A stretch of 64,000 nucleotides of DNA from Rathayibacter sp. Leaf185. GTDB taxonomy: Bacteria; Actinomycetota; Actinomycetes; Actinomycetales; Microbacteriaceae. The DNA lies in the NCBI RefSeq assembly GCF_001423885.1, contig NZ_LMPP01000001.1, positions 372,001 through 436,000 of the forward strand, given 5' to 3'. How positions within the stretch are numbered: the stretch's first letter is position 1; each line of letters begins with the position of its first letter. Below the pieces are notes generated by a model. The model searched no databases. It was not told the origin of the DNA and worked only from the letters and a program-made list of their open reading frames with translations. The translations under genes were made by a program, and so were the position numbers. This document shows, piece after piece, positions 58,202-64,000 of the stretch.

Positions 58202-59065
58202 TCAGGTCGCGAGCCAGAAGACGATCAGCAGCAGGGTGACCAGGAAGCCGGTCAGGAAGTTGAGCGCGAGGAAGCGCTTCCAGCCGGCGTTCGCGCGCTC
58301 GGCCTGGGCGTCGGTCAGGGAGCGGAACGGCCAGATGCTGACCGCGTAGGGCACGGCGAGGATCGCGGCGAGGGTCCCCGGCCACGGCAGCAGGAGCAGG
58401 AGCAGCCCGCTCGCGACGTAGGCGCCGATCGCGAAGCGGGTGGTCGTCCTCGCGCCGATCACGGTGGCGATCGAGCCGATGCCACCGGCCCGGTCGGCGA
58501 TGATGTCCTGCACCGCGCCGAAGGCGTGGCTCGCGATCCCCCAGAGGAAGAACGCGACGAGCAGCGCCACGAGCGGCGGGGTCACGACCGTGCCGGCCAG
58601 CGCGATGCCGTACACGGCGGGGCTGACGAAGTGCGTCGCCGAGGTCAGCGAGTCGACGAACGGGCGCTCCTTGAAGCGAAGTCCGGGAGCGCTGTAGGCG
58701 ATCACCGCGAAGACGCTGATCGCGAGCACCAGCCACGACACCGGCGAGCCGAGCAGGACCAGGGCCACGAGGAACGGCACGTTCGTCACGACCGCTGCGA
58801 TCAGCGTGGCGCGATGCTCGCTGCGATCGAGGACCGCTCCCTCCACGCCGCCCTTGCGGGGATTGCGGAGGTCGGACTCGTAGTCGAAGACGTCGTTGAT
58901 CCCGTACATCGCGAGGTTGTAGGGGATCAGGAAGTAGAGAGTGCCGAGCACGAAGGCGAGGTCGATCTCGCGTGTGGTCAGCAGGTAGGCGGCCGCGAAC
59001 GGGTACGCCGTGTTGACCCAGCTCAGCGGACGGCTCGAGACGAACAGCGCGCGCAGCCGGTTCAC
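58202..59065 (-). CDS. crtEb: Lycopene elongase CrtEb (UbiA-type prenyltransferase)
   Basis: 287 residues, UbiA-superfamily membrane enzyme with about nine helices. The first Asp-rich motif is YGINDVFDYESDLRNPRKGG, the second is VQDIIADRAGGIGSIATVIG, and the N-terminus SSRPLSWVNTAYPFAAAYLL is typical of C50 lycopene elongases. It adds C5 prenyl units to lycopene, giving C45/C50 carotenoids. The GTG at 59065 overlaps the stop of crtYf (GTGA). Last gene of the carotenoid operon. Confidence 0.92.
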   Translation of the reverse strand: MNRLRALFVSSRPLSWVNTAYPFAAAYLLTTREIDLAFVLGTLYFLIPYNLAMYGINDVFDYESDLRNPRKGGVEGAVLDRSEHRATLIAAVVTNVPFLVALVLLGSPVSWLVLAISVFAVIAYSAPGLRFKERPFVDSLTSATHFVSPAVYGIALAGTVVTPPLVALLVAFFLWGIASHAFGAVQDIIADRAGGIGSIATVIGARTTTRFAIGAYVASGLLLLLLPWPGTLAAILAVPYAVSIWPFRSLTDAQAERANAGWKRFLALNFLTGFLVTLLLIVFWLAT

Positions 59066-59364
59066 GACGCGCTCCGTCGACGCGAGGGCAGGAGGGTCCA
59101 GAGCGCGGGGAGCAGGAGCGCGGCCGCGATCGCGTAGGCGAAGTCCTCGATCGGAGCCACGCCGATCCGGATGCCCGAGATCAGCTCGTCGTCGTAGGAG
59201 ACCAGGAGTCCCACCCCGATCATCACGTTGTCGAAGACGGCGGTCATCAGCAGCAGCACGGCGAGCGTGCCGAGCACGGCGGCGAGGCGGAGGCGGTGCC
59301 GCGCGATCGCGACGACGACCAGCACGACCGCGAGGAACACGGCGTTGAGCAGGAGGTAGGTCAT
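59062..59364 (-). CDS. crtYf: C50 carotenoid cyclase subunit CrtYf
   Basis: 100 residues with three membrane helices (LLLNAVFLAVVLVVVAIA, VLLLMTAVFDNVMIGVGLLV, FAYAIAAALLLPALWTLL). The conserved TAVFDNVMI and RIGVAPIEDFAYAI segments match the small heterodimeric lycopene cyclases CrtYf/LbtC. It works with CrtYe to cyclise the C50 end groups. The ATG at 59364 overlaps the crtYe stop (ATGA). Confidence 0.9.
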   Translation of the reverse strand: MTYLLLNAVFLAVVLVVVAIARHRLRLAAVLGTLAVLLLMTAVFDNVMIGVGLLVSYDDELISGIRIGVAPIEDFAYAIAAALLLPALWTLLPSRRRSAS

Positions 59365-59702
59365 GCGCGCACCTCCGACCGCGGCGTCGACCGCTTCGCC
59401 GCACGGTTCGAGAGGAACCCGTGCACATCCATCGTCAGATAGCAGAGCAGCGTGAGGAAGAGGACCTCCTCGACCGGCAGCTCCGGCGCGAGCTGCACCC
59501 CGGTCATGTAGGGGGTCTCGCCGCGGAAGAAGACGCCGAGACCGATCCCGACGAGGTCCCAGACCAGGAAGAAAGTGACGCCGACGGGCAGCACGATCGC
59601 CGCCCGGCGCGCGTCGGCCCAGAAGAACAGGCGGAAGCGCCTGTCGAGCACGACCATCCCGGTGATCGAAACGGCGAGCGCCAGCAGGTAGAGCACCCCC
59701 AC
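59361..59702 (-). CDS. crtYe: C50 carotenoid cyclase subunit CrtYe
   Basis: 113 residues, three helices (LYLLALAVSITGMVVLDRRF, AIVLPVGVTFFLVWDLVGIG, PVEEVLFLTLLCYLTMDVHG). The D-R-R-F and PVEEVLFL elements are conserved in CrtYe/LbtB subunits. It forms the heterodimeric cyclase with CrtYf. GTG at 59702, three bases after the upstream stop. Confidence 0.9.
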   Translation of the reverse strand: MGVLYLLALAVSITGMVVLDRRFRLFFWADARRAAIVLPVGVTFFLVWDLVGIGLGVFFRGETPYMTGVQLAPELPVEEVLFLTLLCYLTMDVHGFLSNRAAKRSTPRSEVRA

Positions 59703-59705
59703 CGG

Positions 59706-62261
59706 CTACTCCCCCGCGACCGCGAGCGAGGCGCGCGGCGCCTCCGTCACGTCGGGCGCCACGGGTGCGGCCGGGACGTCGCGCACCGGCAGCGGCTCGG
59801 TCGAGACGTCGCCGCGCACGCGCTTGAGCATCACCTCGGCGCTGATCAGGCACATCGGCAGGCCGATGCCCGGGATGGTCGAGCTGCCGGCGAAGAGCAG
59901 GCCGTCGACGTGCTTGCTGATGTTGCCGGCCCGGAAGAAGGCGCTCTGCGACAGCACGTGCGAGGGGCCGAGCATCGAGCCGCGCCATGCTCCCAGGTCG
60001 CTCTCGAAGTCGGCCGGACCGATCGTGCGGCGCACCACGACGCGCTCGGCGAGGTCCCCCGCTCCGGTCCACGTCGCGATCTGCTCGATGACCGCGTCGG
60101 CGATGGCCTCGACGCGCGCGTCGCCCGCGCCGTCGACTCCGCCGTGCCCGATCGATGTGTCGGCGGGGATGGGCACGAGGACGAACAGATTCTCGTGGCC
60201 CTCCGGCGCGACCGACGGGTCGGTCGCACTCGGGCGGCAGACGTAGATCGAGGCGGGGTCGGGCACCGACGGGTTCTCGCCGAAGATGCGGCCGAAGTTG
60301 TCGCGCCAGTCCTGGGTGAAGAGCAGGGTGTGGTGCTCGAGCTGCGGCAGCTCTCCGCGCACGCCGAGCAGCACCAGCACGGCGCTCGGGCCGGGCTCGC
60401 GGTTCTCCCAGTACGACGGCGGATAGGTGCGCAGCTCGTCGGGCAGGAGCGACTGCTCGGTGGTGAACAGGTCGGAGGCGTTCACGACGAGATCCGCGGA
60501 GACCCGCTCGGTCCCCTCCGGTCCGTCGAACTCGACTCCGACGACCTCCGCGCCGCGACGGCTGCCGCGCGGCGCCCTCGCGGTGAGGATCCTCGTGGCC
60601 GGCGAGGACGTGCGGATGCGCACCCCCGCCTCCTCGGCGACGTCGCGCACGGCGTCGATCAGCGTGGTGATCCCGCCCATCGGGTAGAGCACGCCGTCGG
60701 CAAGGTCGAGGTGGCTCATCAGGTGGTACATGCTCGGCGCCGAGAACGGGGAGGAGCCGAGGAACACGGCCGGGTAGCCGAGGATCTGGCGGAGCCGGTT
60801 GTCGGTGACGGTCTTCCCGGCGAGGGTGTCGAGCGGAGTGAGGAGCAGGCGTCCGAGGGTGCTCGTGCGGCTGAGCACGTCGCGGCGCAGGAGCGGCAGG
60901 AACGACGAGAAGCTCGTGTAGAGGAAGCGGCGCTTGGCCACCTCGTAGGTGTCGCGCGCCGAGTCGAGGTAGGCGCGCAGCCGCTCGCCCGCTCCGGGCT
61001 CGATGCTCTCGAACAGGGCGAGGTTCGACTCGAGATCGGCGAGCACGTCGATCGGCTCGTCGATCCCCTCGCTGTACACCCGGTAGCCGGGGTCGAGCGT
61101 GACGAGATCGAGGCGCTCGGCGGCGTTCGTGCCCATCAGCCGGAAGAAGTGGTCGAAGACCTCGGGCATCAGGTACCAGGAGGGTCCGGTGTCGAAGCGG
61201 AAACCGTCCTTCTCCCACGATCCGGCACGGCCGCCGACGACGTCCTTCGCCTCGAGCAGGGTGACGTCGAAGCCGTCTCGGGCGAGCAGCGCGGCGGAGG
61301 CGAGCCCGCCGATCCCGCCGCCGATCACGACCGCGCGGTGCGATCCGGTCTGCGAGCGCGCAGCGCGGGCCGGCCCCTGACCGAGTCGCGGCCCCAGCGT
61401 CGAGACGGCCGCGCGGGCGGCGAGCGCCGCCTTGGTCGCGGTCGGCACGCTGACGCGGGCGCGGAGGAGGTCCGGGGCGGGCGTCTCGCGGATGCGGTCG
61501 GCCAGCGCCTGGAAGAGGGAGTGGGCGAGGCGAACGGCGCGGCGGCTCGAGCGGGGCAGCTCGGGCACGATCGCGGCGGCCGCGTCGAGATCGTCGTCGA
61601 GGTCGGCGAGGAGGATCGCCTTGTCCTGCTCCGAGAAGTTCCGCGGGTCGATCCCCGGGAAGTAGCTGCGACCGAGCCCGTCGACGTCGGCCGCCAGATC
61701 GCGGAGGAAGTTGACCTTCTGGAACGCCGAGCCGAGACGGCGAGCGCCGGCGACGAGGCGCACGCGCTGCGCGTCCGGGACGAGCCCCGCATCCGGCGCC
61801 GCGAGGAACACCTGCAGGCACATCAGGCCGACGACCTCGGCCGACCCGTAGACGTAGGCCTCGAACGACTCGGGGGTGTGCTCGGTCTCTCGGAGGTCGG
61901 CGCGCATCGACGCGAAGAACGGGCGGGTGAGCTCCGGGTCGATCCCCGTTGCGCGAGCGGTCCTCGCGAAGGCGTGGATGACCAGGTTGGCGCTGTAGCC
62001 GCTGGCGAGCGCCCGCTCCGTCTCGGCCTCGAAGGCGTCCAGCGCCTCCTCGACGGCGGCGCGGTCGAGACGCGCCTCCTCGGCGACCCCGTCGACGATC
62101 TCGTCGGCGACGCGGACCAGGGCGTAGACGTCCTCGACGCGCTCTCGCACGCCGGGGCCGAGAAGCCGCGTGGCGAGCCCGAACGAGGTCGAGTAGCGGC
62201 GGATGACCTGCGCCGACGCCTCGTGGGCGACGCGGTCGTACAGTTCGCTCTGCCGGCTCAT
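59706..62261 (-). CDS. crtB-crtI: CrtB-CrtI fusion: phytoene synthase + phytoene desaturase
   Basis: 851 residues in one uninterrupted frame. Residues 1 to about 290 are phytoene synthase: VRVADEIVDGV (first Asp motif) and FLRDLAADVDGLGRSYFPG (second). A linker of about 25-30 residues (STLGPRLGQGPARAARSQTG) leads into phytoene desaturase from about 307: FAD motif RAVVIGGGIGGLASAALLAR, VVGGRAGSWEKDGFRFDTGP, SPFSAPSMYHLMSHLDL, and the C-terminal LFAGSSTIPGIGLPMCLISA. The linker contains no ATG, and its only GTG falls inside the dinucleotide motif, so a separate crtI start is unlikely. One polypeptide would condense two GGPP and desaturate the phytoene to lycopene. TACGGT lies six bases before the ATG (leaderless). 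A sequencing frameshift that joined two genes cannot be excluded from this window alone. Confidence 0.85.
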   Translation of the reverse strand: MSRQSELYDRVAHEASAQVIRRYSTSFGLATRLLGPGVRERVEDVYALVRVADEIVDGVAEEARLDRAAVEEALDAFEAETERALASGYSANLVIHAFARTARATGIDPELTRPFFASMRADLRETEHTPESFEAYVYGSAEVVGLMCLQVFLAAPDAGLVPDAQRVRLVAGARRLGSAFQKVNFLRDLAADVDGLGRSYFPGIDPRNFSEQDKAILLADLDDDLDAAAAIVPELPRSSRRAVRLAHSLFQALADRIRETPAPDLLRARVSVPTATKAALAARAAVSTLGPRLGQGPARAARSQTGSHRAVVIGGGIGGLASAALLARDGFDVTLLEAKDVVGGRAGSWEKDGFRFDTGPSWYLMPEVFDHFFRLMGTNAAERLDLVTLDPGYRVYSEGIDEPIDVLADLESNLALFESIEPGAGERLRAYLDSARDTYEVAKRRFLYTSFSSFLPLLRRDVLSRTSTLGRLLLTPLDTLAGKTVTDNRLRQILGYPAVFLGSSPFSAPSMYHLMSHLDLADGVLYPMGGITTLIDAVRDVAEEAGVRIRTSSPATRILTARAPRGSRRGAEVVGVEFDGPEGTERVSADLVVNASDLFTTEQSLLPDELRTYPPSYWENREPGPSAVLVLLGVRGELPQLEHHTLLFTQDWRDNFGRIFGENPSVPDPASIYVCRPSATDPSVAPEGHENLFVLVPIPADTSIGHGGVDGAGDARVEAIADAVIEQIATWTGAGDLAERVVVRRTIGPADFESDLGAWRGSMLGPSHVLSQSAFFRAGNISKHVDGLLFAGSSTIPGIGLPMCLISAEVMLKRVRGDVSTEPLPVRDVPAAPVAPDVTEAPRASLAVAGE

Positions 62262-62328
62262 CGTGCCACCGTACGGGGGGAGGCGGCGGCGAGCGGCATC
62301 GAGCAGGACGTCCGCGCGTGGCGGGCGC

Positions 62329-63399
62329 TCATCGGGTGCGCTCCACCACGCTGGCGACGAGCGGGCGGACCTCGGCGCGGAACGCCTCCGGGACCGCGGG
62401 CACCGAGAGCGCCTGCCAGGCGCGGCTCGCGAAGTCGTTCGCGAGGTTCTCGGCGTAGCTGCGGGCACCGCACTCCACGAGGATGCGCCTCACGCGCTCG
62501 GCGGTCTCTCCACTCAAGTGCTCGTCTCCGATCAGGTCCTCGATCTCGGGCCAGCAGTCGGTCCCCGCCGCGTGCGCGATCAGGACGGTCCGCTTGCCCT
62601 CGCGGAGGTCACCCAGCGTGGTCTTGCCGGTCAGACCCTCCTCGCCGAACACCCCGAGCAGGTCGTCGACGATCTGGTAGGCGATGCCGATGAAGCGCCC
62701 GAACTCCCCCAGCGCCGCGACGACCTCGTCATCGGCACCGGCGAGGATCGCGCCGGCCTGCAGCGGCGCCTCGAACGAGTACACGGCGGTCTTCAGGCGC
62801 TCCATCTCGAGCACCTCGTCGACCGAGGGCATCCCCGGCATCAGCGAGAAGTCGACATCGGCCAGCTCGCCGGCGGCGGAGGCGAAGACCGCCTCGTCGA
62901 GCAGGGTCAGCAGGCGCGCGCGCACCCCGTCGTCGGCGCCGACGCCCTCGACGAGCCGGTGGGCGCCGGTGAGCGCGAGGTCGCCGGCGATCACGGCGAC
63001 GGAGGTGCCGCGGTGCTCGGCGATCGGGATGGAGAGGCCCGCCGTCGTCGCCTCGTCGCGGTAGCTGCCCGAGACGTTGGGGCCGCCGCGCCGGACGAAG
63101 TCGCGATCGATCACGTCGTCGTGCACGATCAGGGCGGTGTGCAGCAGCTCGAACGCGGCGCCCAGGTGGGCGGCCGCCTCCGGGTCCTGACCGCCGAGAG
63201 CCTCGTACGCCGAGAGGACCATCAGGGGGCGGAAGCGCTTGCCGCCGCGGGTGTTGGCCTCCAGCGTCTGCCAGAGCGTGAGGTATCGCGGGCCCAGACG
63301 TCCGGCGCGAGCGCGGGCGAGGGAGAAGAAGCGGTCCAGCACAGCGTCGACGTGCTCCTGCCGTCGCCGGGAGAGAACTACGGAGTCTCGCGTATCCAC
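62329..63399 (-). CDS. crtE: Geranylgeranyl diphosphate synthase CrtE/IdsA-type
   Basis: 356 residues, trans-prenyltransferase: GGKRFRPLMVLSAYEALGG, first Asp-rich motif LIVHDDVIDRDFVRRGGPN, EMERLKTAVYSFEAPLQAGA and second Asp-rich region FIGIAYQIVDDLLGVFGEEG with GKTTLGDLREGKRT. It makes the C20 precursor for CrtB and probably the prenyl donor pool for CrtEb. The GTG at 63399 has TAGCCT exactly six bases upstream (leaderless). It precedes crtB-crtI by 67 bp, which contains a second promoter. Confidence 0.93.
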   Translation of the reverse strand: MDTRDSVVLSRRRQEHVDAVLDRFFSLARARAGRLGPRYLTLWQTLEANTRGGKRFRPLMVLSAYEALGGQDPEAAAHLGAAFELLHTALIVHDDVIDRDFVRRGGPNVSGSYRDEATTAGLSIPIAEHRGTSVAVIAGDLALTGAHRLVEGVGADDGVRARLLTLLDEAVFASAAGELADVDFSLMPGMPSVDEVLEMERLKTAVYSFEAPLQAGAILAGADDEVVAALGEFGRFIGIAYQIVDDLLGVFGEEGLTGKTTLGDLREGKRTVLIAHAAGTDCWPEIEDLIGDEHLSGETAERVRRILVECGARSYAENLANDFASRAWQALSVPAVPEAFRAEVRPLVASVVERTR

Positions 63400-63493
63400 G
63401 ACCCGAGGCTAACAAACTCGGTTCTCTAGCAATAAGCCGGCTGAGTTACGACGGCGTGCTTGACTTACGGTCATGACTTCGGGAGGAATCGCG
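63400..63493. promoter_or_regulatory. Divergent crtE/idi control region
   Basis: A 94-bp spacer. TAGCCT (63406-63411, minus strand) is the crtE -10. TACGGT (63467-63472, plus) is a candidate idi -10. A distant inverted pair AACTC (63415-63419) and GAGTT (63443-63447) flanks the likely crtE -35. It may bind a regulator of the pathway (inference). Confidence 0.4.
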
Positions 63494-64000
63494 GTGCTGA
63501 CGGACCAGATCGAGCAGGTCGTGCTGCTCGATGAGACGGGCGGCGCCATCGGCGTCGCCGACAAGGCGACCGTGCACGATGCCGCCACTCCCCTGCACCT
63601 CGCGTTCTCGTGCCACGTGTTCGCTCCGGACGGCGCGCTGCTCGTGACCCGGCGCGCACTCGAGAAGCGCACCTGGCCGGGCGTGTGGACGAACTCGTTC
63701 TGCGGGCACCCCGCCCCGGGCGAGCGGATCGAGGACGCGGTGGTGCGCCGCGCTGAGCGCGAACTCGGTGCCCGACTCGAGTCGCTCGAGGTCGCGCTGC
63801 CCGATTTCCGCTACCGCGCCGTCGACGCCTCAGGCGTGGTCGAGAACGAGATCTGCCCGGTCTACACGGCGACGCTGTCGAGCCGCGAGGCGCTGGACCC
63901 GCAGGCCGACGAGGTCATGGACTACGAGTGGGTCGACCCGGAGGCGACGCTCGCCGCCGTGCGCGCGGCCCCCTGGGCGTTCTCGCCCTGGCTCGTGCTG
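63494..64000 (+). CDS. idi: Isopentenyl-diphosphate delta-isomerase, type I (partial)
   Basis: The first 169 codons are present; the 3' end lies beyond 64000. Nudix-fold IDI signatures: DKATVHDAATPLHLAFSCHVF, TWPGVWTNSFCGHPAPGE (catalytic Cys and metal His) and VVENEICPVYTATL (catalytic Glu). It interconverts IPP and DMAPP and feeds CrtE. GTG 63494 is preferred, with GGGAGGA about seven bases upstream. ATG 63473 is in frame but touches the candidate -10. Only a short C-terminal piece should be missing. Confidence 0.9.
   Translation, partial: MLTDQIEQVVLLDETGGAIGVADKATVHDAATPLHLAFSCHVFAPDGALLVTRRALEKRTWPGVWTNSFCGHPAPGERIEDAVVRRAERELGARLESLEVALPDFRYRAVDASGVVENEICPVYTATLSSREALDPQADEVMDYEWVDPEATLAAVRAAPWAFSPWLVL

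Follow-up and report, generated by a model that had tools for sequence, protein, structure and literature searches.

The window analyzed here is a stretch of 64,000 nucleotides of Rathayibacter DNA. Toward its end lies a compact set of carotenoid genes, in which phytoene synthase (CrtB) and phytoene desaturase (CrtI) share one open reading frame. CrtB converts two molecules of GGPP into phytoene, which is colorless, and CrtI converts phytoene by desaturation into lycopene, a colored carotenoid. The genes and features of the locus are as follows.

58202..59065, minus strand: crtEb-like UbiA prenyltransferase; GTGA overlap with crtYf
59062..59364, minus strand: crtYf-like lycopene cyclase domain protein; ATGA overlap with crtYe
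59361..59702, minus strand: crtYe-like lycopene cyclase domain protein; GTG start 3 bases past the crtBI stop
59706..62261, minus strand: crtBI, CrtB (N-terminal) and CrtI (C-terminal) in one frame; 851 amino acids, ATG start, TAG stop
59778..61334, minus strand: phytoene desaturase domain (NCBIfam TIGR02734), residues 310-828; FAD motif GGGIGG at 314
61323..61439, minus strand: joining segment, residues 275-313 (CrtB end, linker, first CrtI strand); no ATG
61326..61328, minus strand: GTG two codons before the FAD motif; no Shine-Dalgarno match, not conserved
61440..62204, minus strand: phytoene synthase domain (Pfam SQS_PSY), residues 20-274; motifs DEIVD and DLAAD
62329..63399, minus strand: crtE-type polyprenyl diphosphate synthase, the upstream gene, identified by family match
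63473..64000, plus strand: idi, isopentenyl-diphosphate delta-isomerase, divergent; continues past the window end

According to the family matches, crtE, crtB, crtI, crtYe, crtYf and crtEb are adjacent and lie on the same strand (58202-63399, minus). The arrangement points to a C50-type cluster, crtE-crtBI-crtYe-crtYf-crtEb with a divergent idi, and a C50 product is predicted. The genes downstream of crtBI are tightly spaced yet separate, the fusion being confined to the B-I junction. Two more long open frames cross the cluster. One, of 1090 codons (59421-62693, plus strand), runs antisense to it and resembles a shadow frame of GC-rich DNA; the other, of 919 codons (59062-61821, minus strand), runs out of frame and is also shadow-like except at its end, where it contains the real crtYf.

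All 851 codons of crtBI are free of internal stops, and the computed mass of the product is 91.5 kDa. The synthase half scores 125.6 bits against the SQS_PSY cut-off of 26 and has both Asp-rich motifs (DEIVD at residue 53, DLAAD at 188), as do phytoene synthases of this family. The desaturase half scores 552.5 bits with TIGR02734, the CrtI family (cut-off 238.1), carries the FAD motif expected of CrtI desaturases and is additionally matched above cut-off by Pfam Amino_oxidase at residues 317-808. The original prediction of two complete enzymes, with all key motifs, in a stop-free frame of some 850 codons is thus borne out. A shadow-frame artefact was ruled out by the separate family matches of the two halves and by their dN/dS values (0.17 for CrtB and 0.22 for CrtI). 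No NCBIfam CrtB equivalog reached its cut-off among the 25 families listed for the window CrtBI. As this protein, the only one to which the remark applies, passes the NCBIfam CrtI model with no CrtB model listed, its synthase half could go unseen in automatic naming. crtBI is the sole SQS_PSY-type gene detected in the source genome.

The joining segment had been predicted to lack an ATG and to contain a single GTG, within the FAD motif and without a ribosome-binding site. The missing ATG, the GTG two codons before GGG and the missing ribosome-binding site all held; the GTG is not the only one, as the conserved RVSVP end of CrtB holds another in frame, 42 codons before GGG. At neither GTG (-2 or -42) of the window crtBI is there an AGGAGG match of 3 bases or longer. 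The GTG at -2 is present in 10 of 13 Rathayibacter species and missing in three (L007, L008, L013). For comparison we used 122 loci with separate genes, namely 123 picked by filters from 142 non-fused loci, minus one without a located motif. The 142-locus and the 122-locus set each include some duplicates, in which one locus is represented from two collections. An ATG occurs 35 to 5 codons before the FAD motif in none of the 13 Rathayibacter species vs 86 of the 122 separate loci, and an ATG or GTG in 2 of 13 vs 119 of 122. Both of the two are GTGs (L015, L016) that encode valines of the CrtB end; in the two species with a short linker, GTGs are found at -32 and -30. No start codon with a 4-base AGGAGG match occurs in the scanned stretch of any of the 13 species. 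By itself, however, a missing Shine-Dalgarno sequence is a weak point, because only 60 of the 122 separate loci have a 4-base match near the start. Taken at the sequence level, all 13 species appear to have no separate CrtI start (neither an ATG nor any start codon matching Shine-Dalgarno over 4 bases), although GTG codons remain.

An open frame by itself is also weak evidence, since the DNA is GC-rich (about 72%) and the CrtI frame is open for at least 60 codons upstream in 105 of the 142 non-fused loci, some of which are copies. What sets the locus apart, as far as its sequence tells, is that CrtB and CrtI share this frame without a stop or an ATG between them. Among 200 matched loci, copies included, 52 have one open frame, 10 have the same frame with a stop between the halves, 132 have the halves in different frames and 6 contain one half only.

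We then asked how far the fusion is shared within the genus. All 15 Rathayibacter genomes match crtBI, and each has exactly one SQS_PSY match. The proposed check of relatives for a common fusion and linker showed that 13 of the 15 species share the frame and have linkers that can be aligned, the frame being single and unbroken in these and split across contigs in the other two. The two contig breaks (G004, L017/L020; G014, L018/L019), both in draft assemblies, fall directly at the junction of crtB and crtI or close to it, perhaps reflecting a region that is difficult to sequence.

Over the 13 species, the 39-codon joining segment varies in 18, 18 and 33 codons at positions 1, 2 and 3, respectively. 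Its dN/dS is 0.277, compared with 0.167 for CrtB and 0.217 for CrtI (all values from our own approximate Nei-Gojobori script), and the segment takes in conserved ends of both enzymes. The inner linker is 22 codons long in 11 long-linker species and varies there in 7, 6 and 18 codons at the three positions, with a dN/dS of 0.236 in the CrtBI frame; when the DNA is read in the two remaining frames, the values are 1.5 and 3.7. In the remaining two of the 13 species the linker is 12 codons shorter and still in frame. The dN/dS values, approximate as the script is, suggest that the linker is translated and under selection at the protein level. Because the inner linker shows protein-like evolution in this frame and lacks an ATG, CrtI is most likely produced solely within CrtBI.

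Outside Rathayibacter, separate genes prevail. Full-length stop-free matches occurred, among the matches listed, only in Rathayibacter and Clavibacter in the Microbacteriaceae set (299 genomes, 251 matched) and only in Kocuria in the Kocuria-family set (295 genomes, 201 matched); in the sets for the order (297 genomes, 139 matched) and for the class (394 genomes, 48 matched at 1e-140) the window was the only one. The full-length criterion is insensitive to long linkers, as it found two of the five in-frame Clavibacter of the Microbacteriaceae set. We also inspected 83 junctions, made up of 76 further listed matches (stop-free open frame of at least 800 codons) and L204-L210, leaving aside the matches with an internal stop (e.g. 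G267, G232, G304, G196, G1083, G1001, G454 and G455) and the partial match G572. crtB and crtI are in different frames in 82 of the 83 and fused in one (L265, genome G530). That crtB and crtI are separate neighbors in related clusters, as the original prediction had it, therefore holds as the rule (132 of the 200 loci and 82 of the 83 further junctions have them in different frames). One of the matched loci, L066, is titled Vibrio cholerae strain 35D contig00036 and holds a crtB-crtI pair with the junction spacing of Arthrobacter loci; it is probably contamination or a mislabelled assembly.

Kocuria is the second genus with fusions. Of its 27 genomes, 26 have a match: in 7 the frame is single from end to end, in an eighth, which ends at a contig edge and is counted as junction-spanning, the halves are in frame across the junction, and in 18 they are in different frames. 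The fused Kocuria loci are those of K. polaris (L033) and K. dechangensis (L034) together with L174-L180 and L211. The domain order is identical to that of Rathayibacter and the linker likewise lacks an ATG (0 of 7); in contrast, the linker is short and arginine-rich, with weaker evidence of constraint, and the sequences form a separate branch beside unfused Kocuria. A GTG lies 5-35 codons upstream of the FAD motif in 5 of the 7. In six of the 7 a GTG with GGAG is found at -51 or -53, within CrtB, and one has a GTG with AGGA at -3 and -2. The linker dN/dS is 0.291 over 31 codons and 0.44 over the inner 13, where 8, 9 and 11 codons vary at positions 1, 2 and 3, i.e. with little position bias. 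This weak signal is partly due to two rows with indels, which were aligned without gaps. Each of the 7 fused genomes has one SQS_PSY match. On these sequence features the case for fusion is weaker in Kocuria than in Rathayibacter. In four of the five unfused Kocuria closest to the fused ones (L186, L187, L188 and L212), crtB ends at an ATGA overlapping the crtI start, and in the fifth (L189) there is a short gap. The ATGA overlaps of unfused Kocuria are mostly preceded by a purine-rich site, and the overlap is likely the ancestral state.

The third case is G530 (L265/L306), which belongs to a third family of the order (family code f12) and is known from one genome and one assembly. Its crtBI occupies a single 880-codon open frame, and the stretch between 65 and 4 codons ahead of the FAD motif is free of ATG, GTG and TTG. 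The domain order is as in Rathayibacter, whereas the linker is long and Ala/Pro-rich and the branch is separate. Eight other genomes of the same genus are unfused (L157, L160, L164, L165, L172, L257, L258 and L267).

Clavibacter presents what appears to be a halfway state. In 16 of 18 genomes both enzymes lie in one open frame, which is the feature shared with Rathayibacter; in the other two, G228 (L140) and G312 (L141), the halves lie in different frames and crtB terminates in the ATGA at the crtI start. Of the two genera, only Clavibacter keeps an internal start: all 18 genomes carry an ATG with AGGAG, located nine codons ahead of the FAD motif, and the 24 bases before this ATG and the 21 bases from it onward are identical throughout. 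Since start and AGGAG are kept in all 18, Clavibacter probably makes free CrtI as well as the fusion. The 16 in-frame linkers come in 9 different lengths and have a dN/dS of 0.354. Some of the length changes resemble five-codon repeats, which by nature keep the frame.

Phylogenetic analysis was used to trace the origins of the fusion; the trees were quick ones (LG+G4, SH-aLRT support only), with groups defined by fusion and not by the tree. The Rathayibacter fused clade (support 100) is apart from the Kocuria fused clade (99), which adjoins unfused Kocuria, and G530 groups with unfused f12 relatives (support 100). A single origin with Rathayibacter and Kocuria as one clade was rejected (p-AU 6e-6 with 79 rows and 4e-7 with 82), and so were G530 with Kocuria (1e-4) and G530 with Rathayibacter (2e-4) as one clade. 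A shared origin of Rathayibacter and Clavibacter was not rejected (p-AU 0.51). The minimum number of state changes on the tree is three. The count alone cannot separate gain from loss; three gains are favored because neighbors with separate genes occur on all sides. Besides Rathayibacter, at least two further lineages, those of Kocuria and G530, thus seem to have acquired the crtBI join independently.

As read from its sequence, 59706-62261 is a genuine fusion, already known by name and new in extent and evolution. The name dates from 2017, when crtBI of R. toxicus FH-79 (AYW78_09710) was listed as a 'bifunctional phytoene synthase/oxidoreductase' (PMC5552033). This is the same genus as that of the window, with the cluster order crtEb, crtYf, crtYe, crtBI, crtE, isomerase. 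Because it is listed there, the Rathayibacter fusion is already in print as an annotation, and the separate crtB and crtI of the original prediction are not the full picture of C50 clusters. In the portion of that paper available to us, by whose description the two loci are compared, crtBI is an annotation in one species, without tests of linker, starts or other genera. In the literature searched, beyond which most subscription papers lie, we found no published reports of the Kocuria and G530 fusions, the Clavibacter halfway state, the ATGA overlap in most of the close unfused Kocuria or linker tests.

In Corynebacterium glutamicum, crtB and crtI are two genes, the joint name crtBIYe/fEb being shorthand for the gene row. 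The cluster of this bacterium, crtE-mmpl-crtBIYe/fEb, is described as a gene cluster similar to that of the window (PMC7432914). Natural carotenoid fusions were predicted to join other pairs of enzymes. This is contradicted by thraustochytrid CrtIBY, which holds CrtI and CrtB in a single polypeptide, as in the window, and yielded beta-carotene in yeast (PMC5924542, PMC10016063). The same sources place it in a protist, with the order I-B-Y and a lycopene cyclase in the chain; in contrast, the window has the order B-I, with the cyclases encoded by genes of their own. In fungal CrtYB/CarRA, phytoene synthase is also fused to another pathway enzyme (PMC2889829, PMC5924542), the partner there being lycopene cyclase and in the window the desaturase.

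Taken together, the locus very probably encodes a true bifunctional enzyme, CrtBI, belonging to a carotenoid cluster of the C50 type. One passage of the ribosome would yield a protein of about 91.5 kDa, in which the N-terminal half is predicted to condense two GGPP to phytoene and the C-terminal half to desaturate phytoene to lycopene. Expression as a single protein, activity of the two halves, the evolutionary route and channelling are inferred. The starting point was most likely crtB and crtI coupled via an overlapping ATGA, a common arrangement in the order. An indel in the fast-evolving tail of crtB would then have brought it into the frame of crtI and removed the crtB stop, and the ribosome-binding site and ATG of crtI would have been lost last. 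The comparison of Kocuria and Clavibacter suggests such a path from overlapping genes to fusion. Likely benefits are the local transfer of phytoene, which is insoluble, and a fixed 1:1 supply of the enzymes, the latter provided that translation does not also begin at an internal start.

Two other readings of the shared frame deserve consideration. The enzymes might also be made separately, with the frame shared incidentally, crtB reading through and CrtI arising from an internal GTG too. Free CrtI is indeed likely in Clavibacter, with its conserved ATG and AGGAG, and Rathayibacter retains GTGs at -42, at -2 (10 of 13 species) and at -32 and -30 (short-linker species), at which weak internal initiation may occur. 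However, none of the 13 Rathayibacter species has an ATG or a start with a 4-base Shine-Dalgarno match, a start at -2 would cut the first strand of the FAD fold and is absent in three species, and the other GTGs are valines of the conserved CrtB end. We therefore consider separate production improbable. An assembly or sequencing error that merged two adjacent overlapping genes is easy to imagine, as the order commonly has crtB/crtI pairs that overlap in different frames and one erroneous indel would suffice. Yet the same frame, an alignable linker and codon-position-biased variation recur in 13 of 15 species, and the ATG of crtI has been lost as well, which a one-base error would not do; the chance of such an error is negligible.

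With a genuine bifunctional enzyme as the preferred reading, the reason for its existence can be considered. It is conceivable, if somewhat doubtful, that CrtB-CrtI fusions originated at least three times in the order from overlaps, with Clavibacter halfway, because phytoene is handed directly to the desaturase. A neutral outcome of overlapping genes, fixed by drift without any benefit from channelling or a fixed ratio, has a real chance as well, though not quite an even one. A single indel is enough to merge the frames, Clavibacter tolerates a merged frame with an internal start, and a neutral ratchet, in which the overlap merges and the start decays, accounts for the same facts. Nor is the fusion always kept or common, considering the eight other examined genomes of the G530 genus, all unfused; the pathway can do without it, given that crtB and crtI are as a rule separate in the order. 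On the other hand, the fusion has been kept in all 13 readable Rathayibacter species and found on at least two further branches without the crtI ATG, which is a hint of benefit, not a proof. Should the direct hand-over of phytoene be real, the series from overlap through merged frame to fusion would offer natural before, between and after versions for testing carotenoid channelling. crtBI also represents a natural one-gene design for lycopene with equal amounts of the two enzymes, of use in pigment engineering.

Finally, the Kocuria fusions bear on a published record. A 2026 survey describes Kocuria as an exception that 'lacked crtB' (PMC13028206). The fused Kocuria analyzed here carry crtB in frame with crtI, and the fusion probably explains the reported absence; our comparison may correct the record. 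The survey also reports that the carotenoid cluster of Spongiispira (Pseudomonadota) mirrors that of Kocuria, likewise without crtB (PMC13028206). Either Kocuria contamination or a transferred fused cluster would explain this observation.
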